Below, one piece after another: positions 4,988-64,000 of a stretch of DNA of 64,000 bases. Each line of letters starts with the position of its first letter. Position 1 is the stretch's first letter. The notes below the pieces were generated by a model, which made no database searches, was not told the origin of the DNA, and saw nothing but the letters and a program-made list of their open reading frames with translations. Location of the stretch: NCBI GenBank assembly GCA_030141605.1, contig JAQGDQ010000187.1, positions 1 to 64,000 on the forward strand. Direction: 5' to 3'. The stretch is from Tubiluchus corallicola (Eukaryota > Priapulida > Priapulimorpha > Priapulimorphida > Tubiluchidae). A program made the translations under genes and the position numbers.

Positions 4988-5180
4988 ACAACTTTTACCT
5001 AGATGTCAAATCATTCTGTAGTCAAACCGTTTGTCCTGTGCCTACTGGAAGAATTGATAAAAATGTTGAAAGCCCAAGAAAACCCTCCACTTACATAAAG
5101 CTTAAAAATTTCATCTTGACATTTTATACCACTTACATAATGCCTTTATGACATAATGACAACACCTTAAATAATTAATA
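4153..5180 (+). repeat. Block A, native copy of the inverted duplication
   Basis: It contains the last three ARID4-like exons and the start of the 3' region, and pairs with 1-1028 in reverse orientation. It is separated from block B' by about 150 bp (5181-5330) that has no second copy inside the window. Confidence 0.93.
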
Positions 5181-6547: not shown

Positions 6548-10094
<3,547 letters not shown>

Positions 10095-11460
10095 GTTTCT
10101 TTATTATCAAAACCAAACAAGTTGAACTATATTACAATGTAAAAATTGTAAAATATGAAGGAATTAAAAGTTTAATTAAAAACAGCATTATAAATTATTT
10201 AATAGAGGTAAGCAAATTGAGTTTAAACTTATGTTTGAAAGTTAGTCTATGAGATAAAACTGTTAAGAATTTTTCTGTTATACATTATGGTAAGGGGTGT
10301 TTCAGGCAGCGGCAAGTACTTATATCTGTGAGTATACGCATCTGGCAATATTTCACTGTATGAGTATGTATTGTTATCAGTATACTAACAATAACATTAC
10401 TTGAATCGATAAAACCAACTTTTTACGGGAATTTTCGCATCTCGAAAACTCGGCGAAAGTTCTTAACACGCCTACAGCCAGCTATGGCTGTGAGCTCGCA
10501 ATTCCATTAAGCCGTGTTAACAACTTTTTAACAAGGTCCGTACTCCGAAGCGTGGGGTCCAGTTGTTAGTGGAGCCTCCAATGACGATCTAATTAACGCA
10601 TAAAGCGCTCGCCAATTACCTTTTTTAAAACATTGTAAAACAAATAAACAAACGATCAGCAAAAACATTGAAACATAGATATGCGAGTATTTCACTGGAT
10701 TCACAGTATCAAGAAACTTCGCGCGCACTGGGCACACATTATCATCGTAATATCCTCCGCTCGAACGCTTGAGCGGGGTCTCTTTTTGGCGTGGGGCCCA
10801 ATTTTAATAAATCTGTCTAACTGACTTAAAACCGGCCCTCATCCCAAAACATATGAACATACCCACTTTGGGCGTTAAGATGATTGGACATTTGAAACTG
10901 CATAAAAACGAATGCCTGTAGGTGTTGGTCATTTAGATTTAAACCTGTGTAACGTTTCTTGTTTTTCTTTCCTTTTGTTTGTTTCCTTTTCATTGTAAAA
11001 ATATGTACGAAATGATGTGGCTTTTCACAAAACAAATTAAAGAATGCCGTGCTGTTGTTGATTTAAATTCTCGTCATCTTCATGGCGGTCTCGCTTTATA
11101 AACAAAGATCAGTACTTTGAGGCCTAGTTCAAATTTGCCCGCATGTGGTTGCTATATATTACATGTATTCATCGCTTATGTAAACTCGGGTATTTGATTT
11201 GTAACTAAGCAACGACCAACCCACAACGTCCGTTAAATTACCGCGGTCTTCCAAATGTAGTTCAGTCCAACTTTTGGAGGCGTCCAATTACCATGTAACT
11301 CATTTGTAGCACAAGTATGTTGTGAAATAAAGGTAAGTTGCGGGCTGTAATACGTTTTTAGATTAATTATAACACAATTCTTGTTAAATGTGATCAAATA
11401 CGCGGAATGTAGTTATGTAAAGACTAACAAATTAAAAATTTATAATTACTGTTCTCGAAT
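10095..11460. other. Non-coding spacer
   Basis: No supported gene. A stretch around 10430-10620 is richer in C and G than its surroundings (several CpGs), but no ORF, TATA box or RNA fold could be tied to it. Confidence 0.4.
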
Positions 11461-19292: not shown

Positions 19293-35758
<16,466 letters not shown>

Positions 35759-41319: not shown

Positions 41320-42380
41320 TACTCAACAGATATAGTGAGAATTTGGCAGGTACATCTCTACAGTATGGCTTCACGGACAAGCTCAGCACTGAGCTTTGCA
41401 TTTACACAATGAAGGATGTTATAAATTCATATCTGAATAAGCAAAATGAAGCAATAAGTAAAGGATATCTCGAAGGCATTTGGCTTAGTGAACTATCACT
41501 AGCTATTCTTTAAATGACTACAAATTGCAGTTCCAAAAATTATTGTGCGTATGTTGTTCTTTTTTATTTAGAGCAGATGCTTACTATTAGATGTGGTCAA
41601 TTTAATGCCCAAGTCTTTAAAGTGGGGAACAACATTAAACAAGGTGGAATACTATCTCCTGTTCTTTTCAAAATTTATTTCAGGGAGTTTAGCATTGAAT
41701 TAAGTGAAATGCATAAAGGCTGTTGCATTGGTGAAAAATATGTTAATCAGTTGATGTATGCCAGTGATGTATGTCTTCTGGCAAAAACTATGAGTGCTTT
41801 ATTTTACAATATCTAGTTGATATATAAATATATACATATATATGCAGTATTCTATGCGGATCAAAACAAAATTAATCTCTGTTAAATCAACTATCATGTC
41901 ACAAGTAACATTTAACTCATTACATATAAAAAATTGCAAAATAAGCTCATGTTATCAAGAAAAATACTTAGGACATGTCATAACTTCAGGCAATAAAGAT
42001 GATTAAGGAAACATTCTCTGTTTTCCTGTAGAGCAAACAAACTGTTAAATACATTTAAAAACTGTAATGATAATGTAAACAGATATTTCGATAAACAGCT
42101 ACTGCAGCAACCATGCGGCTACATGGAGAAATTTTTATAATATCAAACCAAAGATAGTATACATTGTATTACTGCATTAATTTTTTGAAAAACCGTTCGA
42201 CTTTGGTCAAAGACAATTATGTGTATCCTGTAATCTCAAATACTTTGATTTTATTAGAAAGTGTGTGTTTAGCCTGTATATAAGGATAATAAACAGTAGT
42301 AATACCATTTTGAATCAGTTATGTAACAGTGATATTAGATGCATGTCTAGCATATGTGCCAAATGGCAATCAATCATATA
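41320..42380 (+). mobile_element. LINE reverse-transcriptase remnant
   Basis: Blocks in order over broken frames: LQYGFTDKLSTELCIYTMKD (about 41357-41420), IKQGGILSPVLFKIY (about 41635), VNQLMYASDVCLLAK (YASD in place of the catalytic YADD, about 41740), a YLGHVI block near 41968, and FIRKCVFSLYIRIINS near 42250. The order matches the reverse transcriptase and downstream domain of a non-LTR element. The catalytic aspartate pair is lost and stops are frequent. Confidence 0.75.
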
Positions 42381-43039: not shown

Positions 43040-46000
43040 ATGGCAAAGAAGGGAAAGGCAAAAAAGAAAGCAGCGAAGACTAAGAAAAAAGTTCAAAGCG
43101 ACGATGACGATGAATATTTGTGAGTATAATTATTATGCACCTTTGTCAATGACTTAAAATCTAAATTTTAGATTATAGGGTTTTCTGAAACTTTGCTATG
43201 TGTGTTTTTATGCCTAAACGGTGATGTATTTTATGCCTAAATTCTAATACTGATAATAATTTGATTATTCTACTTTTATTAAAGATTTTAAGCCAAACAT
43301 GTAGTAAAAGCAGTATATCAAGTAGTAGGCATTATTTGTGCTAAAAGTCTTTAAATATCTTTAATGATTTTTTTAAATACTTTAATACTTCAAATATTAC
43401 CAACACCAAAATAGCTCAAGCTCCTCTCCATTGACTTAGGGATCTAGCCAAAGCAGCATTTTGCCAATAAATTAGCAAGCATTTTCTTGTCACTAAGTAA
43501 GAGCAATATGCAGCTGGTGATAGCACTTAACAAGCCTGATTGAATGGTTATGTTACTTACACCATGTGAATGTCAGTAGGTGACAACAGTTTCAAATCTT
43601 TTGAGCATTATATAGGATAATCATTCATTTAGAATCTGATTGTATGTTATTAATCAATATTTGTATGTTATAATGACATTTTATGCAAATCTGAACCTGC
43701 AGCTGTGTTTATTGCTGCAATGAAATGGCTTGTAGTGATACAATGCCAAAAATTTTCCTTCTTTTTCTAATTGGTAAAGCTTGAAGATTTAGGTTTAGTC
43801 TGGGTTTACCTATACAAAACTATGCTTTAGTTATAGCATGTATATCTATTTTTACTTTTAGTCAGCAGAGCAGCTATAGTCGATTTGATGATGAAATCGC
43901 ACAGATGACTAGCAATAATATATTTGGGGAGGAGAATGAAGTGCAAGAGGAGCTGAAACAATCACTGCTGAAAGAGTTAAATCAATCCATTAGTAATAAA
44001 CCACCATCACCTATTGTACAGCAGAAATCAAAGAAAATGCAGCCAGTAGTAATACAACAAAAAGTGGTGGCTGCTGGTAAGATACAGATGATGAGGCAAA
44101 GACAGTTTTCATAATTGCATGTAGCTCTGTTATCATATGTGTTATTTAATGAGCAGGTGCATATGTACACTGCATGTAGTTGCCATCTTTAAAAACCAAA
44201 ATGCCAGAAAAAATAGCTGGAAAATAATCCTAGAAAAAGTGGTCTCGGGTGATTGACCATCCATCACCGCGTTTTTTGTATTTTAAGATTCTTTGACTAG
44301 ACTGTAACACGATATCCATATTTATTATATGTCTTTATGTATATTTTTAATAGTGTACCTATATTGTTGTGCATAAGCATGTTAACTCATTAAGAAAGCA
44401 AATTGTTTTTAAAACATTTTAATTTGGAAATGTTTTTGCACTGAAAAAGAGCTCTCATCAGTTTATTGGTATTAAATCTACACAGAGTTGTAACTACTTT
44501 CATGTATTTTTTTAGATATAAAGTTGACAAGTAAAGAGCTATTTATAGCCTTTAATAATTTTAAAAGAATGCCTTTAGAGAAAACACAGGTAAGTTTACT
44601 TGCACCAAAGAAAAATTGGTACTGGATCAATTTATTTTGAAGAGTGTAGGATTTAGTTTATTACAATCAAGACTTGTTCTGGTAAATTTTAATAGTCCTA
44701 TAACGATTATTGTAGATATTGTTGTATCTGCATATTGCTTATTAGCACATCAAGGCTTGACTATAGTCAAAATTTAAATCATGTTTGGGTAAAATTATGT
44801 TTACATATGTGCCTGTCAATGTATAAGAAGCATGGGAATCAGATATCTTGCTGTTTGTGACATACCGTTCTAAGAGTCATTCGTCTAAGTAGTAACCTAA
44901 CATGAATTTTATTCACTGTTTTAGAGTGTTATAAAGACCAAAGTTGACTATAACAACTTAGTCGATCTGGATCTTAGTGGCGTTCAGCAGTTAACCAACC
45001 TTTTCTTCTTAATACTTGGTCGTAGCGGAGCATCCGGTGTAAAACAGCTTGCCCGTGTTAATTGTACAGGCTGTGTTCATTTAACAGATATATGTATGAA
45101 ATGGTTATCATCATTTGCAAAATTAGAAGAGGCAAGTTAATGATTATTATATTTATCGATGAATTTTGTGCACACTACATTCACTGCAGTTAGTTTTTAG
45201 AAGCGATGAGGCGTGGCTTCTCTTATATACATTTAAAAAGTTTATTCTGCTCATATTGAATTGTACATCTATTTTTAACAATATTTGACATTTGTGTATC
45301 TTCTTAATATGTTGTTTTTTTCCATATGTGCACATGCACACCCATAAATAAAAGCTGTTCATTTCATTTTGATTTCATGCCATACCACTTTTACATAAAA
45401 TATAGGATATAGTTTTATTATTGCTAAACATAAATAAAATATCAGCTTTTTTAATAGTCTAACGTATCTTGTTTCAGCATAGGTCTGCAATGATATGTCG
45501 AGGCATCATAATATTTTTTGTTACAATACATGTATCCTCAAAGCACACTAGTATTGCGATAACCTGAGTCATTGATATATAGGACATGCTTGACTGTCCG
45601 CTGATAAAAACGGTGTGAAATAATTCTAGCTGCAGTTTAGAGTGTACTGTAGCTATGTAACAATCAGTGCAGTGGCAGCTGCGTAGCATTAGCAGGCCAC
45701 ACAGACAGACCTGCTGCTAGCAACCAAAGTGGTTGAAAGTGCAATGTATTTATAATAATTTATAGTAGGTCAATTACGTTTTTTTATTCTGAAGTGGAAA
45801 GCAACACATGTGAACTAGAAAATGCACTAACATATTTTAAATTAAAAGTTTGAAATGCTTTGCTTTTCTAATGACTTACAATATGATTAGTAAACAAAAA
45901 TCAAAAGTTTGCTGAATTAATTTAGCATTTGGCAATATTAACTTTTCTTCATAGATAAATGTAATCTACTTAGCTTTTATTATACATGTATATATATATA

Positions 46001-49000
46001 TATATATATGTACATGTAAAATAAAAGCTAAGTAGATTAGATATACATATACAATATACAATATATATATATATACATACAATATACATATAGAATATAC
46101 ATATATATATATATATATATATACATGCATGTATGTCAACAGCTTACTCTAGTTTTTTTCTAAAGCATGCAAACATATACATATACAATATATATATACG
46201 TACAATATACATATAGAATATACACATATATATATATATATACATATATGTATGTCAACAGCTTACTCTAGTTTTTTTCTAAAGCATGCAAACATCGTGA
46301 CAGTCCTACCATAGCATCATAAAGTTTTTGCTACCCTTAACTTCAAAAACTTACGGCTAGATTCTAAAGCCTTGTGGAATATGGCCTGACGTGTGAAAAA
46401 CCATTGCTTGTAGTGTAGGTATCACCTTTACCGTCTAGTGGTAATAGTGCATCAGATCCATTCAGAATTGCTTCAATATTATCTAAACAAAGTGAATTGT
46501 GTTGATTAGATTAATAATGTTAGTTGTAATTTTTAAAAATTACTAGGCCTCTTGGTGTTCTCATTGTCTTGAGTAAAACTCCAATCTCCAGTTTGATTGA
46601 AGATTGAATGTTCGTTTTCAATAACCAGCTTTTAATAAATTGTAATGTGCCTTGAATGGTGATGATGAAATAAGTCTTTTAATGTAATTATTGATGGCTG
46701 AGCTACTGCTTCTTTATTGTTTAGGTAATATTTGATGGCTGCAATCAGTTGAGTGAAAGAAGTTTAGTGTCATTGTTCGAGTCATGTGAACAGCTAGAAA
46801 AAATATCGATGGCGGGGACATCTGTTAGCTTTGTTCCAGAACCAAAGAATTTATATGTTCATCTTAATCTAACTGGCTGTCCTCTCATTACACCACCTGC
46901 TAATTACATAGCTAATAAGCCATTGGGAAAGTATTATAAAGGTAAAACAAAATTTCAGTTTTAAATTAACTCTAATCTTAATGAATATTGATTTAGTAAG
47001 TTGTTATTGTAAACAGTCAGTGTGTATATTTAATCACTTGTGCTTTCTACATTACAAGATTGCAAGAGAGTAAACTGCATTTGAGAAATATTAATGTTTC
47101 TGACAACAGAAGGGTAATTATGGGGTTTATGATAACAACACAATTAGAGGTTACTGGTTACCTTTTTCAGCCAAGGTCAGCTTGCATCAACCTAACCTGT
47201 TTAAAAATGAATTTAGTAGTTAGTTTCTAAATTTTTACCAGGCACAGAACATAGGGACAAAGTTTATATGTATAAAGTGATCATAATTGGCAGTACTCCT
47301 TCATCACATAATTATATCGATGCTATTGTGAATGGAAAAAGATCTACCATGTCCACCAAGCCTGTCTTCATCCACAAAGGCTGGAAACCTAAACAGGGCG
47401 CTAACTCTTACAACATTTTCCAGTGCACTTGGGTAAGTACAATAACATGTTGTCAGAATTGTTAAAGTCGTTTCCTAATAATCCTATACTAATAAACAGT
47501 TTGTCTAGTAACTAATTATGTAAGTAGAATATTTCTAGTATAAGTTTTCTATGTTGATTTTCTGTCATTATTGCATGTCATATAAAACGTTACCATATGT
47601 GTGAATGTGGTACCACCCTGAATTGCTTTAATCTGTGAAACAGCTGTGCTCTAGTAGGTATAACTTCTGTTGTAATCTCTTTCTTGATTGCTTTTCTCTT
47701 AAATGTGCAAGTGCATACTTTTTAATGTTATAAAAATTTATTAATAAATATTCAGGACATTTCTAATATTTTGATTGAACTAATTTGATTGAATACTTTT
47801 ATTTCAGAACAAAGTCCATATTATCATGCAATACAAATCATAAATAACAATCAAACATTAACAAGTCATATGGATTTATTTCATACAGATAATTAAAATT
47901 ACTAATTTTTTCAGTAACACACAAAAATTACAGCGAAGAACTGAGAGAATAAACCCCAGTACCCTTTACTGGTGTAGCTCAGGACTCTGTAACTTTGCCA
48001 TTTTTAACATTGCAAAAAACAAGGTTTTTTGAGATTTAAGAAAGATCCAGTGCTTTTTGTGTCCATTTCCATAGTTAAGGAATGCTAATTGTAGGCTTAT
48101 GTACTTAAAAAAGTTGTATTTATTTCAGAAAAAGCCAAATGTTACATTTAATATACAGTGTTGTTTTACTTGTAGGAACTTGTGCCACTATTCATTAGCA
48201 ATAGAAGCATTGTTGTGCTAATAGCAGATGAAAGTGAATCTGGTCAAAACAACAATGCGAACATTGCTATTAAGATAGCTTCAATACTCAGCCAGGTAAT
48301 GACTACCATTAATAATTCTAAGTTCATTGGCTACAGTAATCATTCAAGACTGGTTTAATCTGCATTTCTGTTTGTTTGCAGTTTTTCGGGAAAAACTGAA
48401 AAAATGAACAGGTAGATAGATAGCAAGAAAAAGTAATAGTCTGATGTAGTATAAATTGTCATTGTAGCATAACATTCTGATTTTTATAAGAATCGACTAG
48501 CATATTTTTATATATGACGCCCTACTGAATGCCAATGGTTATTGCTGGACTATGTAAAATTTTTCAGTGATTGTTCAATGTCTCTGGTTTTCAATTTAAC
48601 TTATTATTATTAATTTTATTAATTAATAATTATTAATTTTACAATAGGTTAGCAAATTAGCTAATGGGAATAGTCATGCAATGACAGTGTTTGTAAATGA
48701 TGGTAAACAACATTGGATCTGATTAGCAAATGGATGACTGCCCTTTTAAAAAATTGCTTCTGCATGATTTTATTTATTCCGACTATTTGTTTTGCTGAGG
48801 GAGGGTATATAGACACATCCACTGTGGATAAGACTTTTCTGCGTGTTAAGTATTTCAGTATTAAAGCATCAGTTGTGATAAATGGCCAGATTCTGGTTCT
48901 GTCACAACCATGAACATAATTTTGACGGTTATCCAGCCCATTGTCTTGTGCTAGATACTGGTCTGGAATGTGCTGAATGTATAGAAAAATCTTTGAAATT

Positions 49001-52000
49001 TTTTATTTTGTCAAAGAGATATAGAGCTTATTGAGAAATGCTTTTTTTCAGTTTCCAAATGTAGTATTTATCTTATCTGGTGTTCAAGTTGATGCAATAG
49101 AGAAGATGTTGCAACAGCTGCGCAACAACTGTAATGTGGATGAAAATACCGCAATGAAGTGTGTAATCATCTGTGTTATCAACTTATTTTTTAATACCAT
49201 GTCTTCGTGGTACCAAATAATCAGATTGATTATTAGTTTTATTAATATCGTTTTAATCACAAAGTGGCATTGACAACAGTAAAAGAATGTGTAGTGTGTA
49301 TATGTGTTCTAATACTATAAGGATATCTCTGTAAAAACTCGATAATACCAGTCTTGTTGGTTTGATTTTTAGTCATGTGTCGTAATCTCTTATTATGTAT
49401 GACCTTAAAATTGTAGAATTATATTGCGGGGTGTTACTGCTGCTAATCTACGGTTTTGTGTCAAGTAATGAAAATGATTGTGATTTATTTTCTACACATT
49501 TTATTTGTAATAAAGCTTTTAAGGTGGAAATTAGCATTTATGTGTAGATAAATGTAGAAAAGACATTGAATTTCTAAAAGTAATAACTTATCAAAATTTT
49601 TATGAACAAATGCTTATTGTGCACTGCTGAGAGAATTTATTTTTTCAGTAATTTGGAAAGACTAAGTTTCACGGACCAGATTCAAATGGGAAGGCTTGTT
49701 CATTTCACAACAAAAGTGTTGCACAAAAGCTTCTTTTCAAGTCGCCTTGTTGCATCTGGAATAGATTCATTTGAGGTAAATAACATTGTCACCTGCAACT
49801 TGTTCAAAAATACCACTCGTGTTTTTATTCAGCATAAAAAACATTTTATGAAATTTTATATTTCCTATACAGTGCTTCTTGTTATACAAATCTAATGCTT
49901 TTTTGTGTCATTTTTTTGTCACTGTAAAATAATTGTGACGTGTTTGTTTTTTACAAAAAAGTGTCTGATGAGTTAATTTGCTTATTTTCTATGGCTTAGT
50001 TAATTAAAATATATTAACATGTGTTGGAAGTTGGAAGTGTGTGGTAATATTTGTTTATTTTATTTAGAGTGGAGCAGATGTACAGAAAGTTTTTGAGGAA
50101 GCAGCTACTAAACTGTCAACCATTTGTCCAGAATTTGTTGCTTTAGACAAGGATTTTATGAAGGTAGCTACACAAAAATTACCTGGTAATCAGGTACTGA
50201 CTGTAGCAAGTCTAGATGAAGCTCTTGGGAAACCATTCTTATCGAGACCATTGACTTTTCAGAAAGCTATAGAGGCCATGCAAAATATGGTAATAATTCT
50301 TTATAAATATAAGTACCTTACATTAATATTTGTGACTTTCTAGGTGAAGGATTAAAAACATTTCTATGCTGTGTAAAGCAGAAGTTTTTTGCATTTTTAA
50401 TTTTTAAGAATGAACTCACTTTTAAAGTAATTACTTCTTGCTACATGTAAAGTGAATATCAACTTTTTCCTTTGTAATTGCATTTGCACATTTATAAGAT
50501 TTTGTCCAACTTAAATATAGACATTTTTGTGAACACCATGTTGTATGTGAATTTTTGTTTGTTTAGGGTGTGCTAATGTACATTCCATCACTCACTCAAA
50601 AAGTAGTTATAACTGACTTGAAATGGGCAGAAAAGACATTTAACAGTTTGTTCACCAAACCTGACAAACTCCATAAGCAAAGTATTTCTTTCATAGTGCC
50701 GGAAACACCAGTTTACACGAAAGATGAAATGAGACAGTTATTAAAAGATACTGAGTCAGAAGAAAAAGTAATTTTCATTTTTTTTAATATTTTGTGATGA
50801 ACTGGTAGTAATGAGCTGATTTCTAATGAAATAGATTAGTTGAAAAGTTTTTGAGTTGTAAGATTGATTGTGAAATATTATTCATTTTGAAACCTTTTTT
50901 TATTCAAGTATAAGAAACAGGCAAGTAAACTGTTAAACATCATGAATTATATTTTATAAAGCGAGACTTTTAGACTGTTCAGTTACCTTTGTGCAATAGT
51001 TTAAGTTTGCCTGCAGTTAGAGGCCACATTTTCATACATATGTAAAATACACCCAGTTATACTTCTCTAATAGGAAAAAAATCTTGGCTCTTGTTAGAAG
51101 CATTTTGGTTTTTAATAGATCAGATTTAATACTCATTATTTACATTTACATTTCAGCTTGATATGCTACTAGAGGCACTTCAAGAATTTGGTCTTATTAT
51201 TAGGATACCTCCTGAAACCTCACCATCAAAGTCTTTGTATATTATGTCATCTCACTTGCTTGCTGATGTTCCTGTAGCATTGGTAAGTTCTATTATAGCA
51301 AAGTTTTGTCAGATGTCTGACAGCGCAAATCATTTGGTTGGTGACTGCACTAAGGTGATCACCCTGTGAAAGTGACTTTGTTTGACATTCTCGGGTTTGC
51401 AGGTTGGGGAATTGTACCAGGTAGAGCTTGTAGGTGAATTGCTTCAGACTTGCAGTGGTTCAGCAATGCGGCGCACCTAGTTAGCAACTTATAAAATTTT
51501 CATACTTTGTAGTCTGGAAATGATGCAAAAAAACTGAAAAATTTTTAGAGTTCTGTATTGATGGTTAACTTTTTTATGTATGATACAATAAAAAATGACT
51601 ATATTCAATTGCAATTTAGTGATAAGACATGTTAATATGATAATATGAGAGTTTAATACTACAAATAAACAAAAATTTTATGCTTTGGAACTATATTTTG
51701 AGATTTCGATGGGAGCTTTCAACTCCACAATTTTTTGGGGGGGGGGTAGAATGTAACTATACATTTTATGGCAATGCATGTGTAATCAGAATCACTCTGA
51801 ATCATCAGCTTTTTTGCAAAATTTGATGAACAACGGCTGACTGAGCTAAATATATAGAAAATATACAAATATTGTTGAAGAAATCAAACAAGTTTAATAT
51901 CAAATGCATTTTATAAACGTACTTAAAAAACTAAAAAAATCATACCTAATAATTTTAATTGTGCTGGGAAGTTAACTAGGCAAACATTTATTTAGATTTA

Positions 52001-55000
52001 GCTGATTTTCCTGCATTTGAATTGTTTTTAGTTTGGAAAAAACGAGTTCAGTTGCAAAATGTTTCCTGACAATGTCCAAGCACATTTGGCTTCATGCCGG
52101 CAGGCCTAATTTCCTGATTCATCTGGGGCAAATCCCAACACATAATTATTACATTTAATTTAGAGACAAAAACAACTCAACAAATTGAATCAAACTAAAC
52201 CTGTGTTTGCACTGGGAACCAGAAAATCACTTCCTTGTCATTTTGATTAGGCAAATATTAATTTCCTCTTCATAATAGAATAACTGCTTCGGTAGTTTCT
52301 TTCCATAGTTTATTGTTGCTAGTATAATTAATGCTAATGTGCTGTTCTAAACTGTATTAGATGCCATGTAGATTTCCAAGAAATTTTACATACTTTGCAT
52401 GTAATTGGCTAATTGTATGGCTAATTTAATACTTGTAAATAATCTAACAGCAGAAAGTAAATAATTGTCACACACTTAGCAGAATTTATATCTGCAGACA
52501 TAATGTAATCATCTGAAACAACAAACAATTGTAAATACTGTGTTTTCATATTTTTGTAGAAACACTACTGGACGCCTAAGACACAAATGTATGATCAAGA
52601 AATGGGATACGCATTTTCCTTTTACTATCAGCAGAGTGTAGGATTAATACCAATACTGCTGAATGAGCTAGCAAACACCTGTAGCTTGGCAGTACTTTGG
52701 AATGCAGGCTTTATTTTGCAGCAGCGTGGAATGGAAGCACTGATTCAACTTAGCAGTCAGAATTCAGCTAAAGGTAAGTTGTCCTGGGTCTTTGTTAAAA
52801 CACTCTGAGCAACATTACATTTAACTTTAAGTTACTTCTTTGTATTCCTCTTTGAAGACTACAATGTGAAATTGTTATTACGACAAAGTATCGCTATCTA
52901 CGTCTCGAGGCCTTCACAAATTTATGTAATATGTTTTTTGCCTTATAGTTCAGTTATCACTACTATCTTCCTTGTTTGTAAAATTAAGACTTAATTTTTA
53001 CCTTGGTTAATCTGTAGTTAATTAATTGTTGAATACATGCAGCACCTGCTAAACTGGAACTGTTCGTTCGAGCAATGCGTCCACCAGATGACATGGACAC
53101 TGTTATGGTTGAAACTGGTCCAAAGCAATGCATGGAATTTATGTTAGGCCTGTGCTCATTAATAACTCAGTACTTGTGTAATAGAGCCGGTATTGGGTAT
53201 CAGGTATTCAAGTGTGGCCTAGAAATTATTTTTTGCTTGAAGTGGACCGTTTAATATTTTCAGCACAGGAACTGTTTAATGTCACTGATGAATTTTTTGT
53301 GTATTTTTATGTAACTTGCAGTTAGAGTATGTGATTCCTTATCTACAGTATGTAGAATATGCACATTGTTTTACTGAAAAATCACCAGGTTTGTGTGCTG
53401 TGTTTTAGCACTTACAGACTGCTGTTTATATGAGAATTTTGGCACTTTTTTCATTCGCTTTCAAGGTAGCAAATGCTCCTAGTGATGCAAACTTTGCCAA
53501 TGTTTAGATTGAAGGTATTTACTCTGAAGATCAGTGCCCGAAGACGAAAGCAGCTCATGTGGTAAAGATGTGGGAGACACCTTTAGATATGATGGAAGGC
53601 AAAAAGTGCTCAAACTGCCAAGCTACAATTAAGCGAGAGCTATTACTTTTGCATGGTATGTGAAGAGTATGCAATTCAGGATTTTAAATTTGAATCTTTG
53701 CACTTACAACTGTATTTAAGGGAAAGATAATATAAATTTGCCGAGGCAAGCTGTACAATACCAGTATGCACATGCAATTGGACAGATATGAAATGATAGA
53801 TCATGTTATTAATTCTCTGTGTTTGCAACTGTCGGAAGAAAAAAACGAATGCAAATTGTACAATATTTACTAAACAAATAAGGTGGACATGAAAAATGTA
53901 AATAATAATTTTTTGTGTTAGTTAGAATAATTGCTATGATTGGCTAAACTATTGCTTAGTGTAAGAAATGTGTAGCAACTTATGGAATTGTGGTATTTAT
54001 ATTAATTACTTGTCACTTCTTTTTTCTTTCAGAACTGCTTCCAATGAAGCACGTTAATCGTATTCAGTCTGGAACATGTACACTGTGTGCACGAAGATAC
54101 AGAAAAGAACCATCTTGCAACACTTGCGCCTTATGCTCAGTTTGTCAGGATTTCATTTTGGTTAGAATTTTTTTAACCTAACTGCTACTCATAAAGTATG
54201 GATTACTTAATTAGTTGTAATTTTAATTTCATGAAAATAAATATTAATTCAATAAAGGCATAATTGTGAAATTTTTGAAACCAAATTTGATCAAAAGCAT
54301 AGAATGTGTAACAGTCAGGTAGAGCTTGAATTTAAAATACGAATCTTTGATTAGGTGTATTTTTTGTATGTAGGTTTGAATTTGCAAGTTTCACATCAAG
54401 AGTGTTTCACTCTAACAAGAATTTTTTATGAAATTTTACTCTTGTTTCATTCTGAAAATGAGTTTAGAAGGCTCTCTTTTATCTTCTATTTTACCAAGGT
54501 TTTTCCCAGTTTAGAGCAAGCATGGCAATGGGTGAACTAATAATTGTTGTACAATGACAAATGTTTGGATATTTCTAAAACCCAAGTATGCAGATCACTC
54601 ATCATATAGGAAAAATATTATAAATTTTAGTAATAGTTTATTATTTTAATCATTGATATCCAAGTTATCATAAGAAGACAGTAAGGGTATTGTTTGCATT
54701 TGTAACTTCTTTGATGCCTCTTTTGGTTGTTGTTTTTTCAAAAATGACCTACTAACAAATTACTGTAGATTATATACTACATTATATACTGTAGATTATT
54801 TAAGTACTACTTCTTATATTCCAACTTTGGCCCATATTAAGGATAAAAAAGTTTCAATAGTATTTTATTTTTAAGAAGTATTTACGTTATAAATGTGTGA
54901 TTATAATTATGAAGTTGTTTATAATAATTTGCCTTCATGATTTGGCATTTTCAGACCAGATGTATAGCTGTTTCCCCATCATTTTTTCCCTCTTACTTGC

Positions 55001-58000
55001 TGACACATTCAACTGATGAGCAGATGCAGGAAGCAGTAAAACAGGCAGGCAGTTATGTGACTGTAACACCTTTGAATGAAGACATTGTAACTCTTCATTA
55101 TGAGCTGAAAGTTGGAGATTCATTTTTTATAAGCTTTTTGAAAGGGCCCTTTCCTGTAATTGAGGTTGCAATTGCGTAAGTTTTTCATCGTATAAAGTTT
55201 TCTGTATTTTCTTTGCGCATAATTTTATGAAGTAGTTTAATTTTATGCTTATTTTTTTCACAGTTAGCATATTTTTGTGAGTACCATTCCTCTTACACAT
55301 CATGAAGAATGAGATGGTATTTTTGATACAGAAACATTTTTTTATTTAGCCAACTTCTGCTGGTCAGCTATAATTTCGAAGATGGTAAGATTGTACAGAA
55401 GCAGCTTGACTACCCGAATGAGGAAAGTAATGAGGAAGAAATGATTACGGAAACAGATAATACAATAGAAAAGGACACATTCATAAATGGCTGCTGCTTG
55501 CTTTGGAAGATCACACACAAAGTAACATACTGTAAAATTCCTTCAATCAGTTGTCTTTTCAAATGATTAGTATATTAACTTTGACTGAACGATTTATTTT
55601 GTAAATTTGTATGTGTGGTTAATACATATATTTGTACAGTCAAATTAGAGTTGGAAGGACAGGTGCATTGTTAATATTTAGGCATAAAAATCTCTTTTTA
55701 TAGTTGACACAATTTGTACTCTGAGACATTGTCACCAAGTGAAAGCTTTCAGTGCAAATTTACATTTTTTATGTAATACCTAAGAGTAAAGGAGTTGCTT
55801 ATTCATTTTTATTCACGTTTGTTTCAGCTTGTCGATATGGAATCATCTGAGTCGTTGGAAATGAGCAAGCGTTCTGAGTCAACGACCATTGCTTCGGCTG
55901 AATCAAGAGGAAGAGATACAGGGAAGAAATCTCTCCAAGCTTTTTTTGAACTAATGGTAGATGATAATTTGATTTATTCAGTTTCTCTCCCAAAGCTTGA
56001 TGATGGAATGCTGGTTACAGATGCATCAATGAAGTTTTCATTCTCAGCTGATAGTGAGATGGTAGTTGGCTCTTTAGGCTTTCAGGTGTGGCTTTGTTTA
56101 TTTTAAAAGATAAATATATGTTTAATGCTGCCGTGAATATTAAGAATAACTTTTATAATTAAACAATTTGCATAATTTTTCTAAGAAATGAAATAAAATA
56201 TCAGTAAAAACTAACTGCAGAAGTACCACCATCTCACAAGCTTTTTAAGAAAATATTTATTAATTCCGATTCGGAAAGCTTCATTTTTCTGGAATTTCAC
56301 CAGAAAATTGATGGAAGCTGAAACTGTGGAAATCATCATTTCCCAGAAACAACAAATTCTGCATAGCTCAGAAGCAAGACTTTTTTAGCCTAGAACAATT
56401 TTTATTTAGACTATTAAACAGACTATTAGACTATTAGGTCAAACAGTACCTTAACTTGCTGCAGTATATGTGTTAGTCAACCAGACCGTGTGTTTACTGA
56501 TGTTACCGTTACCGCAAGTTTTAATTGATGTTTGTTAGGCTACATGTCAGTTGTTTAGAAAAGCATGGTGAGTTACAAACATATTTTCACTTTGCTAATA
56601 GAGCTGGTCACAACATTGATCATTTAAAATTCTGTATTGTATAGGCAACTCAAAACCGAATTACTGGATTTCAAGAAGGCATGAAATTAGAAGCATTAGA
56701 TAGGAAAAACCCAAGCCTTATTTGTGTTGCTTCTGTTAAGAAGGTGTTCAGCAACGGCAATGTGGAAATCTACTTTGATGGCTGGTCAGAATCGTAAGTT
56801 GTTCAATTAAGTTTTTTGATAGCATATAAGAATATTCGAGTTAACTATATTTGCTTTTAGTGTTTAGTGATAATTCTCAGTATGTGATACAATATTAGAG
56901 GTTTTTGGCTAACATTAGCAGTTTTGCACACCATTGGTAGTAACAGACTGTAAGTGATGCATTATCCTAGAGCATTACATTTTTGTGTAACGTACCCTGT
57001 CATGTGCTATTTCTGGGAAGCAGTAAAAAAGAACTGTACTTTTTATAGTGTTTTTATCACTCAACAATGTTTTCTTTCTTGGTTTAAAGTTTGTTGCCTG
57101 TCATAAGCCTGCTGTTTGATTATATGCCAAACTGTCAGTATTGCATGCGTTTAACTACCGAACATGCAATTGCTAGGTTATTTGTTTTCCTTGGAAATGG
57201 CCACAGATAACACAGCAAGCTTTAAACTTTAAACTTACTAATTGCTTCTGCAGATTTTAAAAATATTCTAATTTTGTCAAAAATTACAATTGTGCAAAGC
57301 CTGCATGGCTGCTTTTGCAGCCTAATTAATGTGTGTGCTAAAACCAAAACAAAAATAATTTTTCAAAAAATATTTTTGCTATGTTTTTGTTTTTACAAAA
57401 TGCAGAAAAGTTACATTTCAACAAATGATTTTTTTTACAGTTTCTGAACGCTCAACTTTTTCAAACAAGCTCATATCATGACCACTCAACTATATCTTAC
57501 CCTCAACAACGAATTTGTTGAAAAAAATTGCCAATTCAGTTTTGATTGTATTATTAAATGAGCTGAAAATGCCAGTAGGGTCTAACTGTATTATAGTCAC
57601 TATTGCGTAAAAAGATAGAGAACACCTCTCCTTCCCCACTCCTTCCTTGACTAACGTGGTAGACTATTTGGTGACAATAAGAAGAACAGAATAAAATGAA
57701 ACTGAAAAACTACATAAAATTTGTCAAAGAAAAGTACGAGATAAACATACTAAACGTGTTTGGATATTAATCACGTTGAGCATCTATCGTGGTGGAGAGG
57801 TTAAGAGGTGATATGTATACTATATTTGTGGCTTAGTTTGATAGTTATTCTCTTAAACTATCTATGTTTACAACTTGGAGCTGAATGTTTATTTCTCTTG
57901 GTATGATCTAGCATTAAATGTTTGTTTCTGTCGGTATGTTCCATATAAGAATACCTCTGGGAAATCATTAATTTTTAAAGATTTATGCTGGTTTTATCTG

Positions 58001-61000
58001 AAGGACATGTAAAGCCAAATTGTGATTAAATATTCTTTATCTGAATAAAATGTAGGTGATACAATAAAATAATGCAAGTAAATGTCCAAAACGTGATATG
58101 CAGGAAAACCTTAAATAAAGCTTACCTCATCTCATGCAAAAACAGAAAGACAGAAAACACATACAGTAATCAAATTACTTAGACATTATCATAAAAAATC
58201 AAATAAATTAGTGGAAATTTTTTCCAGATACAAGTTGAAATTTGTTAAAACGCGTTGTAAAAAATATTGTTTTAAATTCCAGTGTGTATGATAACTTAGC
58301 GTATGTATAAGGTAGATTCAGCCACGACAGTTCCGACGTAGCAATGTATAGCAATGCGATATGCTTCATTTTTTGTGTAGGTTTTACCGATTGTTTATAT
58401 GACCTTCTAATCTGCTTTTATTAGATTTTTTAATTAAACTCTGCAATCTAATCTCTGTACGGTAGAGTTTACAACTATAACCAGTTTACTGTACATTATG
58501 TTTAATCCAACATACTGATTTTCTTTATTAGGATTTGTAATCTGCATGTTAGGCTCAAATGGTAATTGTATCTAGAAAGTAACTGGTTGCTGACTTGACA
58601 GTTTCTTTTTTTATTTTCAGATTCAGTTACGTTTGTGAGTCCACTGATAAAGATCTTCATCCTGTTGGATATTGTAACCATGTAAATCATAACCTGAGTG
58701 CACCTAAAGGTATGGCTTAGTTTAATTTTGTTTATTATATCATTTTACAACAATGTCTAACAACACAGGTCAAGTTCATCACTGCATCAAAGATCAAGTT
58801 CTCATACGTATCAATAAAATTGTTAAAGATTACATTTAAGTTAAAATTAAATGACGTATTGTAACTTAAGATTTGTCAGTCTGCTTAGAGTGTTTTTGAA
58901 GTGCAGACATTAATAGCTTTTCATGTACTAAGAGGCTGTGGTCATTCTTGAAAGCACAAGTCATTTGTTTTTAATATGTCTATTCTTTGCAGAAAAAGAG
59001 TGAGAAATTAAATATTGTGCATATTTGTAGAAAATGCACTAGGATGAAATGGTTACAAATTATTTGGTGACTGTTGTGACACACTACTTAAATAATTAAA
59101 TGTAGTGTTAAACATTTAAATGTTTTAAACAGGTTTATATTGTGGTAACAGTTTTAATTTAATTTCAAGAAATTTTTCAAGCCACTTAAAAATTTGCAGA
59201 AATTTTTTTGTTTAACTACGCATTTCATGAGGTGCATTTTTAAGATTATTCTAAATTGTTGATTTTTTAGGTGACACTGATTCCAATTTTTCTTGGCCTG
59301 ACTACTTGGAAGAAACTGGTTCAGTTCCTGTACCTTATGAGTTGTTTACAAATCCGGTATGAACATTGCTTGGCATGCGATAGGATACAATGTCTGTGTT
59401 ATTGATACTTCTTCAGTACAGCTTACATTTAGACTTTTATCATTTTACTGAGTTAGTGCTGATATTGTATGTGCAAGAATTTGATATCCTGACAGTTGTC
59501 TACAACTTATTTTTCCTTCATTTCAGGAACAACTTGACAATTCTCCACCAGACCCAGTTTATAAAAGATTTAATTTTTCTATTACAACGTGCACCTTTGA
59601 TGCCACTGTAAACCCACTAGGTATGCTGTGAATATATTTTTGTGGTGTTTTATCTTATATTAGTGTGTTACATTATAGCCAATAAAGAGCTACCAGCTCA
59701 TGTTATACATGTAAAAGATCACCTTTAAATATAATTTTATGTTATCTTATCTTCTCTTATCTTACAGTATTTGTCATTTGACTAAAGGTAAAATAAGTCA
59801 ATGTTTGCGACTGCAATATTTGTTTAATGAGAACTTTCATTTTTGTCGATTTGATGTTTTTATTTTATTTGAATGTGCAGACAAAATAAACGTTTCAGTA
59901 CTCATTTTGAGTATTAGAGATAGTAAACTGTTGCAATAATTTCAGTAAGGTATTTTCTGATATAAGTGCAGAAAACAAAACTCGTATTTTTCAGTACTAG
60001 CATGTAGTGTGAGGAAAAGCGCTGCGGTGCTGGCAAAGGTGTTCTATGGCTTAGATTCGGATAGCTACTTGTTCTCTCTGCTCCCTCTTGATTTGGATTC
60101 AACCATACTGCAATATCCATGCAGACGAGCTGTACATGATCTCAGCAGACAAATGATTTACTTTCTTTGTGCTCACAGGGGTATGAGAGCTGTTGAAACA
60201 ATTCTGACTGTTATTTTAATAATATTATCACTTCAATTATTTAGGAAGGTGAATGCCGATACAACAGTGTGTAGTAATTTTTACTGCTGCGCACATTGTT
60301 GTTGCCATCTTAAATTTCAAAATGACCACCTGCCATAAAATTATATAATGTATTAATTACCTTTGCAAGTTAGTTGTTTGTAAGACTAATTTGTCAGGCA
60401 GCTTGCAGACTGATGTCAGCAAAGTTCAGTTCAGTAGAAGAAATTGGATAAACCCATTCCTGCAGCCAAAAAAAATGAAGAAAATCATAAATAAGTGGCT
60501 TGTCAGTAGAATTATGCTTTTTAACATAAGACTGAGGTGCACATAATTCATTCTTAGGAAATGCTTATAATTTGAATTTTGTGATACATTCTTTCATTTA
60601 ATTTTTCAATTTTCCTATTTGCAAACCCTTGAAAACTGCTATATCCTATGACTGCATCCACGTTTTTAGATCATTGAGTACAATAGAGCACACTAGAACA
60701 TAGTACAACAACCAAAAATATGAATAGGGATTATGGTGAACCCATTAATTAAAAGGCATATAAAATGATATAAAATGCAAGCAGAATTTTAAAATAATCT
60801 GGCATGCATGGGATTTGTTGACTTGAAAGATAGCCACCTTATTTTGTGCCGTTTTGTGTGTTAACTTTGTTTTGCCTAAATTATAGTATCAAGAGTCTTA
60901 AGAACTAATAATCTTACTTCTATAGTATGCTTCTGTTTTTTTCCAATTTTGCTGAATACAATTAATAAAGATTAAATACATTTTATACAGTCTACAGGTC

Positions 61001-63431
61001 CTCAAAAATATAATTATTACAAAGAATTTTTGTCCAATCAACTGTAATATATAGTCAGTTTAGAGAGTGTTTTTATTTTTTAGATGCAGAGCATTTCATA
61101 GATTTGGCAGGTATTATGTATCAGCCAAGCAAGATTTCTTTCGATTCTTTGTTGTCTGATGTTTGGGTTTACTGTTGTTACGTGCTCTCTAAGAGAAAGG
61201 TATATGTTCATTCATGGTTTAGAAAGGAATAATAAATTTAATCATACTTGTTATAAATATAACTCAATAAGACAAACTCCATTTTGTGTCAACAGAAAAC
61301 ATTTGATTACTGGGATGTTGAAACAGTCGTTCTGTTGTATAACCACACTATGCCAAACATATTAAAGCAATTGAAAATATCCAAGAGCGAGCAACTAGAT
61401 TGATTGTCAAACTTAAGAATCTTAATCGACTTAAGAAACTGAAACTCCCAAGTCTGGCATTTTGGAGATATTTTTATTTTTGTTACCTGAAACACTGTTA
61501 TACTGGTACTTAAATTAAAAAAGCTACGTTCTATTTTCATCAAGATCGGTTTCACTCTTGAGGTGTAGTGTACACTCACGTCTCACTACTACAGCTCACT
61601 TAATTCGCAAGGGTTTCTCTGTCATTATCCAAGCTTGAGATATTTTTGCCATCTTGCTCTTCTTTTTACATTAGTCAGTGCCTAGAAAGTATGCCGCACA
61701 GGCTTTAATTGAAGTGCTTGCTAACTGACAACAATGTTTGGCTTTCACAGTTCAAGCTATATGCTACTGGCTATGATGCAATTTGCATTAGGGAACTGGT
61801 CAGGAGTTTAATTCTTGCACTCTTTTTTTCAGACAACCATTCCCGTCTTTGACAAGATTGTGAAAGATTCATCATCCGTGTCACTGGAGCAGGTCCTTAA
61901 ATTACAGTTTTTAGTTTTAACAAAATTTTAGTTGTTATGTTTACAGTAGCAGTTATGGTTGTGCACTTTTTGCTATCAGGTTCTTTTACCATGCAGTGAA
62001 AATCTTAGTCTTGACATCAATATTTAAAGTAAAAATAATCTGTTATTGTTTGCCTTATCAGCACTTTATAGTTGTTATGTTGTATCACTTTTGCTTGTGA
62101 TTTGTGTTAAACGTATGTAAGAGCAAAGATACCAAATAGAAATATGAATTACACTTTGCAAATACCTGTGCTACTAATAATTAGATTATTATAAATTAAT
62201 CAAGAATGCTACTTTGATATATTCTTATTTCTATTCTTCAGGTGTCGGCTGGAGTGCAGCGATTATTGTATATGTACCTTTATACAATCAGCATGTATTC
62301 TCCGTTTCTGAACATGTTTAGGCAAATTGAGGCACAAGGAGAAAACTACGAGCTTGTACTTCCTGCTAACTCGGGGGTAAAATGACCATCTTTATAAAAA
62401 TAACATCCATTTCATGGTTTAATTGCTGTTAGTTTATTAAATTGTAAATTATTTGCTGCATTAAAGTTGTTTTGTTTATTTTCTTTTATAGGAAGTTGTT
62501 GAACTTGCTAAAAGGACTGAAGGCCATTTGATTAAATTTGCTGCGAAGAACCAGATATCTCGTTACAGTTGTCCATTCCACGCTGACACTTATCGTCCCG
62601 AGGAACAACTAGAAACTATTGATGTAGCTCAGTATCTTCCATACGCGCCTTTAATTGTGAGGCTCAATTTCAGTCAAAACAACATTAAGGAACTCCCGGA
62701 ACACATTTTTCGGGATCTGTATGCACTCCAGTTTGTTGATTTCTCTAATAATAACCTAGAAACAATTCCAAGTGGTTTGCCCAATGCTAGGAATCTTGTT
62801 GCAATAAATATAGCTGGGAATAACATACAAGAATTACCAAAGGATTTCTCTGCAGCCCACTCCTTGAAATCTCTCGACATTTCCGATAATCCTTTTCACA
62901 ACATTCCCACTGAAATCTTTGCCCTGTCTGGACTGCAGGCTTTGATTGCCAAATCTCTTGTCCTTGATGTATTGCCTGATGATATAGGCAACTTACAGCA
63001 GCTGAAAACATTGGATTTATCTGAACATCAATTGAGCTTTTTGCCACAATCAATGGGCCACATGAGAGCCATGGTTCACTTTCATATCTGTGGATTAAAA
63101 TGGATAAAGCATCAAGGTTCAAATACTATTATAACAACTGAGTCATATCGGGAGTACGTTAATCACCACAGGGCCCTACGTGGCACTTATAAAAAAGTAA
63201 GTTTGTTTACCATAACATTTTATAACAACAAGTTATATTGTTTTATGTATTCTTTTTGATTTGTTTAACTGTTGTTTATTGTGAATATTATATCCCCCAA
63301 AAAGCTTTACTTTATTTCAAATTTAACAGCTGCAGCAAATCTTTTGTTATAGGGATTTGTCATACATTAATATTAAAATTTTTAATGGTACATTCAGAAT
63401 CAGAACTGATGGCGCCAAAAAACCTGTGTGA
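43040..63431 (+). CDS. ROCO-family protein with degenerate Roc, COR, MBT and two LRR blocks
   Basis: Twenty-nine exons join in phase to 1636 residues: 43040-43119, 43862-44076, 44516-44589, 44925-45131, 46725-46941, 47242-47432, 48176-48295, 49052-49158, 49649-49775, 50068-50289, 50567-50767, 51157-51282, 52560-52773, 53043-53203, 53508-53655, 54033-54160, 54955-55175, 55350-55521, 55828-56085, 56645-56793, 58621-58709, 59271-59356, 59527-59620, 59995-60180, 61084-61199, 61833-61892, 62242-62376, 62492-63196, 63330-63431 (TGA). The N-terminus (MAKKGKAKKKAAKTKKK) is lysine-rich, then acidic. Domain order is LRR, Roc-like, COR, Cys-rich, MBT, helical region, LRR; each is described separately. 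ROCO proteins are large signalling scaffolds of the LRRK/MFHAS1 type whose Roc GTPase and COR act as a pair. There is no kinase domain here. The MBT suggests binding to a methylated partner, which is inference. Exon joins are hand-derived; two further exon-like segments break phase and were left out. Confidence 0.8.
45962..46039. repeat. AT-rich hairpin
   Basis: TAATCTACTTAGCTTTTATT (45962-45981) is answered by its reverse complement at about 46020-46039, enclosing a (TA)n stretch. It lies in the ROCO-MBT intron 45132-46724. Confidence 0.9.
46040..46296. repeat. AT microsatellite with a duplicated flank
   Basis: TA-rich tracts alternate with a duplicated block (GTCAACAGCTTACTCTAG ... AAAGCATGCAAACAT) at about 46135-46173 and 46254-46295. 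It looks like unequal exchange or replication slippage. Confidence 0.85.
47242..49775 (+). other. Degenerate Roc-like GTPase region (residues 265-446)
   Basis: The segment opens with a Ras-like first strand (KVYMYKVIIIG), but the following P-loop position reads STPSSHNY instead of GxxxxGK[ST]. The G3 region, normally D-x-x-G-Q, reads NIFQCTWELVPLFISNRS. The next strand (IVVLIADES) is kept. The G4 strand (FPNVVFILSG) is followed by VQVD rather than [NT]KxD. The fold is inferred from strand order and from the COR domain directly after it. Without P-loop Lys/Ser it is unlikely to bind or hydrolyse GTP normally. Confidence 0.6.
50068..53203 (+). other. COR domain region (residues 447-754)
   Basis: Five exons encode an alternating helical and strand segment in the position of a COR domain: TFQKAIEAMQNMGVLMYIPS, then DLKWAEKTFNSLF, then LDMLLEALQEFGLIIRIPPE and YIMSSHLLADVPVA. 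The pattern of a winged-helix-like half (W-x-x-x-x-F, E-x-F-x-L-x-x) followed by FSFYYQQSVGLIPILLNELA agrees with what I know of COR N- and C-terminal halves. COR normally mediates dimerisation in ROCO proteins. Confidence 0.6.
53508..54160 (+). other. Cys-rich, probable zinc-binding segment (residues 755-846)
   Basis: Two exons contain DQCPKTK, CSNCQATIKRE and then CTLCARRYRK, CNTCALCSVCQ. Four CxxC-type pairs (CSNC, CTLC, CNTC, CSVC) point to one or two zinc-binding knuckles. I do not recognise a named domain. It sits directly after COR. Confidence 0.6.
56645..59356 (+). other. MBT repeat (residues 1064-1171)
   Basis: Three exons encode a textbook MBT repeat: FQEGMKLEALDRKNPSLICV, ASVKKV, VEIYFDGWSESFSYVCES and DKDLHPVGYCNHVNHNL. 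FSWPDYLEETGSVPVPYELF follows, the linker that usually leads into the next repeat. Compared with L3MBTL1, the cage Asp and Asn (D-R-K-N), Phe and Trp (FDGW) are kept, and the fifth cage Tyr is replaced by Phe. MBT repeats read mono- and dimethyl-lysine. Only one full repeat is visible. Confidence 0.9.
61346..61470 (+). mobile_element. LINE reverse-transcriptase fragment in an intron
   Basis: The plus-strand frame reads HYAKHIKAIENIQERATRLI and then LKNLNRLKKLKLPSLAFWR, a common late LINE reverse-transcriptase block. It is short and truncated on both sides, between the ROCO-MBT exons at 61084-61199 and 61833-61892. Confidence 0.65.
62492..63196 (+). other. C-terminal canonical LRR exon (residues 1369-1603)
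   Basis: One long exon encodes at least six 22-24-residue LRRs of the Ras-suppressor/Shoc2 type: LNFSQNNIKELPEHIFRDL, VDFSNNNLETIPSGLPNA, INIAGNNIQELPKDF, LDISDNPFHNIPTEIFAL and LDLSEHQLSFLPQSMG. This LRR type is normally N-terminal to Roc in LRRK/MFHAS1-like proteins, so its place after the MBT is unusual. Confidence 0.9.
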
Positions 63432-63681
63432 AAACTACTGTATTGAGTTAAAAGCATATCAGATGGTGGATGTGCACCAGTTATGGATACAAGATAGTTT
63501 AGCAAATATGGCTTTGTCATTAATGCTAGGCCATTACGTTTTTCAGCTGAAGCAATCTGGAGCAGGAAACCTCTTTGATTAGGCAGGGTTTTTTTGAGGC
63601 CTCCCAATGTATAAGTGCTTCTTGTTTTGGAATTTTTTACTGTACTATGTAAAGAACAGAAATTTAATACTATGTAAAGAG

Positions 63682-63915
63682 TATTAAAATAAACTTTTAT
63701 ACAAACATAAAATTTATTTATTTATTTTTGCAAGCCTCTTTTTACTAATTTTTTTACTCAAAAGTAAGGTGCTTATATTGGATGTAATGTTATAAGATTA
63801 TTAAAATAAACTTTTATACAAACATAAAATTTATTTATTTATTTTTGCAAGCCTCTTTTTACTAATTTTTTTACTCAAAAGTAGGGTGCTTATATTGGAT
63901 GTAATGTTATAAGAT
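63682..63915. repeat. 117-bp tandem duplication in the shared 3' region
   Basis: Two units, 63682-63798 and 63799-63915, are almost identical (one A/G difference seen near 63763/63880). Each carries AATAAA for the plus strand and several AATAAA/AATAAAT hexamers for the minus strand. The unit ends at the stop codon of the convergent gene. Confidence 0.95.
63688..63693 (+). terminator. Poly(A) signal for the ROCO-MBT gene
   Basis: AATAAA about 257 bp after the TGA at 63429-63431. A duplicate copy lies at 63805-63810. Confidence 0.55.
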
Positions 63916-64000
63916 TTATTTCTCATCCAATGTAAGCATATCGGAAATGTCGAATTTGTTTAAGCTAATATTGAGCTTGTTCATGTTTTCAGGAGCTAGA
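63916..64000 (-). CDS. C-terminal codons of a convergent gene, partial
   Basis: On the minus strand, an open frame from the window edge ends LAPENMNKLNISLNKFDI, then SDMLTLDEK and TAA at 63916-63918. AATAAA hexamers follow directly within the duplicated 3' block. The frame is too short to name a family. An AG at about 63996-63997 could be a splice acceptor, so the exon may begin there. Confidence 0.45.
   Translation of the reverse strand, partial: LAPENMNKLNISLNKFDISDMLTLDEK

Follow-up and report, generated by a model that had tools for sequence, protein, structure and literature searches.

A predicted ROCO–TIR protein with an MBT repeat and putative tandem Roc–COR units in the priapulid Tubiluchus corallicola

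Does a single gene of Tubiluchus corallicola join a Roc–COR unit of the ROCO family to an MBT repeat, and where does that gene end? The question is raised by a locus on contig C977 (420,531 bases) of a 343.5 Mb assembly. The window analysed here comprises bases 1–64,000 of this contig, so that contig numbers and window numbers are the same. An earlier note on the window had described a ROCO protein carrying an MBT repeat, with its last exon and stop codon at 63330–63431. We find it very probable that the encoded protein belongs to the ROCO family and has an MBT repeat. Our preferred reading, to which we give a probability of roughly 0.6 and which draws on analogy with other ROCO proteins, is a single intracellular protein of 3169 residues that belongs to the animal ROCO–TIR type, contains an MBT repeat and tandem Roc–COR units, and would act in GTP-driven TIR signalling.

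The exon chain was rebuilt by hand from the sequence and joined by script. Contig positions 62001–92000 were fetched, of which 63900–82000 were read; the segment 62001–64000 is identical to the window over that span in a script comparison. Within the window the chain consists of 28 exons (43040–63196, plus strand) that join in a single frame of 1603 residues, and the continuous, phase-consistent chain proposed previously from the ATG at 43040 is thus borne out as far as 63196. The start codon itself is assigned from the frame only. Splice sites have AG acceptors and GT donors, with the lone exception of a GC donor at exon 4, and all 14 exons in the window that reach 149 nt are open in exactly one of the three frames.

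The frame does not stop at the window boundary. An exon beginning at 63993, of which the first 8 bases (63993–64000, plus strand) lie in the window, is phase-compatible with exon 28 and opens a series of 27 exons that ends at 81556. The complete predicted gene has 55 exons encoding 3169 residues with no internal stop or frameshift, and its 54 introns have 53 GT donors and one GC donor, together with 54 AG acceptors. The gene is real, large and extends beyond the window; we infer one transcript for the entire 55-exon chain. A candidate minus-strand gene ending at the window end was rejected after the contig sequence past the window had been read. Inclusion of the previously proposed exon 29 (63330–63431, plus strand) yields a protein of 1636 residues with a stop at its end. 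This exon was rejected as the main gene end, as the rival splice to 63993 holds the frame for 27 more exons, and the earlier placement of the gene end at 63431 is most likely wrong. The stop at that position is possible solely as the end of a short form.

Intron 28 contains two 117-nt tandem copies (63677–63910) that are 98% alike and each carry an AATAAA, and a gene caller might be tricked by these copies into placing the gene end at this point.

One competing account divides the locus into two transcripts or genes: a short protein ending at 63431 with LRRs, a degenerate ROCO unit, the MBT repeat and further LRRs, followed by a downstream LRR–ROCO–TIR gene. An in-frame terminal exon with a stop is indeed present, as are AATAAA strings after that stop, within the tandem repeat. 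We nevertheless regard this division as unlikely. Exon 28 can splice in phase to 63993, and the first methionine of the 63993 exon is 27 residues in. The LRR array also spans intron 28, with LRR_8 scoring 69 versus 46.2 bits and LRR_4 52.1 versus 28.8 bits with and without the exons past the window, although the query lengths differ in these comparisons. Finally, the published description of an Aplysia gene that is counted among the TIR–LRR proteins gives it ROC, COR and Mbt regions as well (PMC9334734), which argues that LRR, ROC, COR, MBT and TIR belong together.

The predicted order of domains in the single protein is a Lys-rich N-terminus, LRRs, a degenerate Roc–COR unit, a cysteine cluster, the MBT repeat, a region of about 200 residues, a further set of LRRs, an intact Roc–COR unit, a weak and then a clear TIR domain, a charged linker and a CaaX-like end. 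Exons 1–2 (43040–44076, plus strand) contain the start codon, the Lys-rich N-terminus (MAKKGKAKKKAAKTKKK) and an acidic and Gln-rich stretch. The N-terminal LRR-like repeats in exons 4–5 (44925–46941, plus strand) are weak, with an LRR_4 match of 18.7 bits (E 0.0021) against a cut-off of 27.

The first Roc–COR unit follows the N-terminal repeats. Its putative Roc domain (residues 265–446 approximately; exons 6–9, 47242–49775, plus strand) scores above shuffles with a Roc-only profile and has no Pfam match in scans of either the whole protein or the segment. In a separate scan of this segment, exons 10–15 (50068–53655, plus strand) give matches to COR-A (PF16095; 24.5 bits, E 2.7e-5, cut-off 35.3) and COR-B (PF25497; 13 bits, E 0.094, cut-off 27), neither of which is listed in the Pfam scan of the whole in-window protein. 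The translation then contains a cysteine cluster of the form CxxC...CxxC...CxxCxxCxxC (exons 15–16, 53508–54160, plus strand), a possible zinc site for which there is no Pfam match over cut-off.

A Roc–COR profile was made from 90 prokaryotic sequences, comprising 10 plasmid loci (10 of 11 matches, with H11 left out) and 80 genome loci (the best 80 of at least 551 related loci). The first unit scores 23.3 bits with this profile, compared with 5.0 for the best of 200 shuffles and 301 for the second unit. Separate Roc and COR profiles were obtained by adding the second unit to the Roc–COR profile and splitting the result. With these, the first unit reaches 17.0 bits for Roc (8.0 for the highest of 1000 shuffles, 0.8 for the reversed sequence) and 19.2 bits for COR (7.9 for the highest of 1000 shuffles, −3.2 for the reversed sequence). 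The Roc alignment covers only residues 333–405 and leaves the P-loop part unaligned; the same Roc stretch is aligned by BLASTP with the second unit as sole subject (BLOSUM45, E 0.006).

GTPase domains of this kind are recognized by a P-loop of the form GxxxxGK(S/T), a DxxG motif and a T/NKxD-like motif. The first unit instead has IGSTPSSHNYI at the P-loop position, YNIFQCTW at DxxG and LSGVQVD at THxD, and appears to be a Roc–COR that has lost its nucleotide-binding motifs; a degenerate copy lacking the P-loop is the most that can be claimed for it. The previous Roc assignment in the window has a profile score above all shuffles for residues 333–405 and no Pfam match, and the COR assignment is recovered in the segment scan with both matches below the Pfam cut-offs.

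An equally unlikely proposition is that residues 262–775 form an unrelated region and not a Roc–COR unit at all. In addition to the missing Pfam Roc match and the sub-cut-off COR matches, a phmmer search of the unit against the PDB at E ≤ 10 gave no Roc-COR, only one weak, unrelated nitrogenase match, and the unit is absent among the listed matches of a COR-A search of the animal's own genome. We read the region as Roc–COR because COR-A, COR-B and the cysteine cluster occur in the right order and the profile scores exceed those of all shuffles, for the whole unit and for each half. The BLASTP alignment to the equivalent Roc stretch of the second unit points in the same direction.

The MBT repeat is certain. 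It occupies residues 1071–1143 (exons 20–22, 56645–59356, plus strand) and matches PF02820 over residues 1076–1143 with an E value of 5.3e-23 (81.5 bits, cut-off 22), in agreement with the strong call made in the earlier note. In the genome search, the match at 56681–56821 is counted with one inner stop, since it extends beyond the donor at 56794 and takes in intron sequence. The best match of known structure is L3MBTL3, with the second of three matched stretches scoring 85.3 bits. When aligned with L3MBTL3, the pocket positions D1082, N1085, F1107 and W1110 are retained and the tyrosine is replaced by F1114; we take the asparagine to be a pocket residue. The semi-aromatic cage of MBTD1 has been described as D502, F526, W529 and Y533 (PMC2747274). 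Relative to that cage, the F–W and W–Y spacings are equal and the D–F spacing is one residue longer. It is plausible that this repeat reads mono- or dimethylated lysine in a partner protein.

The region of about 200 residues that follows the MBT repeat (exons 23–27, 59527–62376, plus strand) matches no family at E ≤ 10 and is probably helical, as judged by eye. The exon 27–28 region has no relative in an IMG/VR scan. Exon 28 (62492–63196, plus strand) encodes the LRRs that lie ahead of the second Roc domain (LRR_8 E 4e-12 and others).

The second Roc–COR unit lies 0.6–10 kb past the end of the window and provides the intact Roc followed by COR in one chain. All three of its domains are over the Pfam cut-offs: Roc (exons within 64633–67697, E 3.1e-22), COR-A (68669–70692, E 6.6e-33) and COR-B (72154–74007, E 3.9e-26), all on the plus strand. 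The COR-A search of the genome likewise gives matches over cut-off at 69277–69414 and 70525–70674, 5–7 kb past the window. The three nucleotide-binding motifs are present as GLGGAGKTS (P-loop), VWDFAGQS (DxxG) and VGTHVDK, from which the second Roc is predicted to have what is needed for GTP binding. The proposal of a ROCO protein with an MBT repeat very probably stands in its main point, but Roc and COR within the window are degenerate, and agreement with the family models is found in the unit beyond it.

Two TIR domains follow on the plus strand. The first is weak (TIR_2, 74163–75864, E 3e-5, 24.9 bits, cut-off 28) and the second is clear (TIR_2, PF13676, 76034–78160, E 2e-13, 51.4 bits, cut-off 28); PF01582 (TIR) reaches 14.2 bits, below its cut-off of 21.3. 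The last 597 residues have no family match at E ≤ 1. The last predicted exon ends with the sequence SKSCCIM, with the stop after CCIM at 81556 on the plus strand. We take these final four residues to be a CaaX-like pattern, and the C-terminus may be lipid-anchored.

L3MBTL3 and L3MBTL1 are chromatin proteins, and the repeat described here resembles theirs in MBT sequence and in most of the pocket. This likeness, with D, N, F and W kept and Y changed to F, could suggest a chromatin protein that binds methylated histones through the MBT repeat and uses its basic, Lys-rich N-terminus as a nuclear signal. We consider that role quite improbable. L3MBTL3 has three repeats and other chromatin MBT proteins are known to have two to four, whereas a single repeat is found here in a ROCO–TIR protein. 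The link to chromatin raised in the earlier note is also not favoured because the same protein carries TIR domains and a prenylation-like motif at its C-terminus, features that favour a cytoplasmic or membrane signalling protein. A decaying gene or an assembly error, for which one could cite the degenerate first Roc, a perfect inverted repeat at the contig start (a sign that the assembly may have defects) and the presence of a probably bacterial contig in the assembly, is very improbable, because neither a stop nor a frameshift interrupts the 3169 codons and the splice sites are regular.

The single 3169-residue protein is most likely an intracellular, GTP-gated TIR signalling protein in which the MBT repeat and LRRs serve as sensing modules. 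By analogy with other ROCO proteins, the second Roc would bind GTP and, with its COR, drive dimerization or a conformational change that draws the TIR domains close to one another and sets off their signalling. The GTP state would control how close the TIR domains are. The LRRs and MBT repeat would act as input modules, the first Roc–COR unit could be a fixed scaffold or dimer partner, and the CaaX-like end might provide membrane anchoring. As a tentative and rather doubtful extension, we suggest a two-headed ROCO in which a methyl-lysine reader separates a nucleotide-dead first Roc–COR from a live second one, and which also has TIR outputs and a lipid anchor; methylation of lysines in proteins could then control a TIR immune signal that is switched by GTP and located at membranes. 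If its function were shown, the coupling of a methyl-lysine reader to TIR signalling would represent an unusual kind of input for the innate immunity of animals.

To our knowledge, the human ROCO proteins LRRK1, LRRK2, DAPK1 and MFHAS1 have no MBT and no TIR domain. Like the predicted protein they contain Roc–COR, and all except DAPK1 have LRRs before Roc (in part from the description in PMC6337361). LRRK1, LRRK2 and DAPK1 differ from it in having kinase domains. The working mechanism of LRRK2 is described as still debated (PMC6337361), and a naturally occurring chain that pairs one dead with one live Roc–COR could, if function were shown, serve well for testing models of the dimer.

Closer relatives are already in print, and the earlier statement that no ROCO–MBT fusion is known does not hold: such combinations are listed for Trichoplax (PMC4104024, PMC5094078) and for Aplysia (PMC9334734). 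Up to forty domain combinations are reported for ROCO proteins in animals (PMC11378527). The legend to Figure 1 of a 2014 study names MBT and TIR among the domains of Trichoplax ROC–COR proteins (PMC4104024); the Trichoplax adhaerens set is like the present protein in the ROC–COR, LRR, TIR and MBT domains named in that legend. In three Trichoplax ROCO proteins, ROC is described as preceded by an additional Ras-like domain, a possible counterpart of the first unit here. According to a 2016 study, TIR_2 and GTPase domains are accompanied by MBT in Trichoplax and by C2 in an oyster (PMC5094078); unlike the present protein, the oyster protein with TIR_2, GTPase and C2 has no MBT in that description. 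The same source describes LRR–Roc–COR–TIR_2 genes in sea anemones. Among them, Actiniarian Novel Gene 1 shares LRR, Miro/Ras/Roc, a low-threshold COR and TIR_2 with the protein described here but is reported without MBT, and its BLASTx matches to F-box/LRR proteins arise through its LRRs only (PMC5094078). Aplysia californica LOC101848126 was counted in 2022 as a putative TLR (TIR and LRR) in which ROC, COR and, as an accessory region, Mbt are present too (PMC9334734). By this description it has the same LRR, ROC, COR, MBT and TIR kinds of domain, with its LRR deduced from its class. The accessible sections of PMC8195603 mention no MBT.

The literature searched, which covered text and figure legends, contained neither a tandem ROCO whose first GTPase is dead nor the prenylation-like end; published proteins may share the tandem layout and the dead first Roc. 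ROCO, MBT and TIR in combination are already in print as annotation, and the tandem layout and possible lipid anchor merit comparison with the Aplysia and Trichoplax proteins.

A COR-A search of the T. corallicola genome gives at least five matches on at least four contigs: two on C977, both in this gene, a match over cut-off on C761, and matches below cut-off on C419 and C679. An MBT search gives at least 19 matches on at least six contigs, two of them in this gene. COR-A and MBT occur together on C977 only, among the matches listed. The match on C761 (1533–4946) lies in an uninterrupted ROCO frame of 921 residues, and the C-terminus of a neighbouring ORF resembles a Bacteroidota-type secretion signal by eye; C761 is likely a bacterial contig inside the animal assembly. 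C679 and C419 probably contain exons of two further ROCO genes. The former appears LRRK-like by eye, and neither has an MBT match among those listed. On C1229, an MBT match of 30.8 bits belongs to a long open frame that begins in a Tudor-like manner, includes a zinc finger and is PHF20-like by eye.

Several other elements are found in the window. Positions 1–1028 and 4153–5180 form a perfect 1028-nt inverted repeat at the contig start, with the same ORFs on both strands, and look like a fold-back assembly artefact or a very recent inverted duplication. A long TAT/ATT microsatellite at about 9968–10126 produces poly-Tyr and poly-Ile open frames. A reverse transcriptase fragment (41514–41816; RVT_1 E 5.6e-5, below cut-off) lies just upstream of the gene and is perhaps left over from a LINE-like element. 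Two minus-strand exons at 27935–28964 match WH1 (1.4e-18 and 2.5e-10) and, together with a proline-rich ORF at 23739–24191, probably belong to an Ena/VASP-type gene on the other strand.
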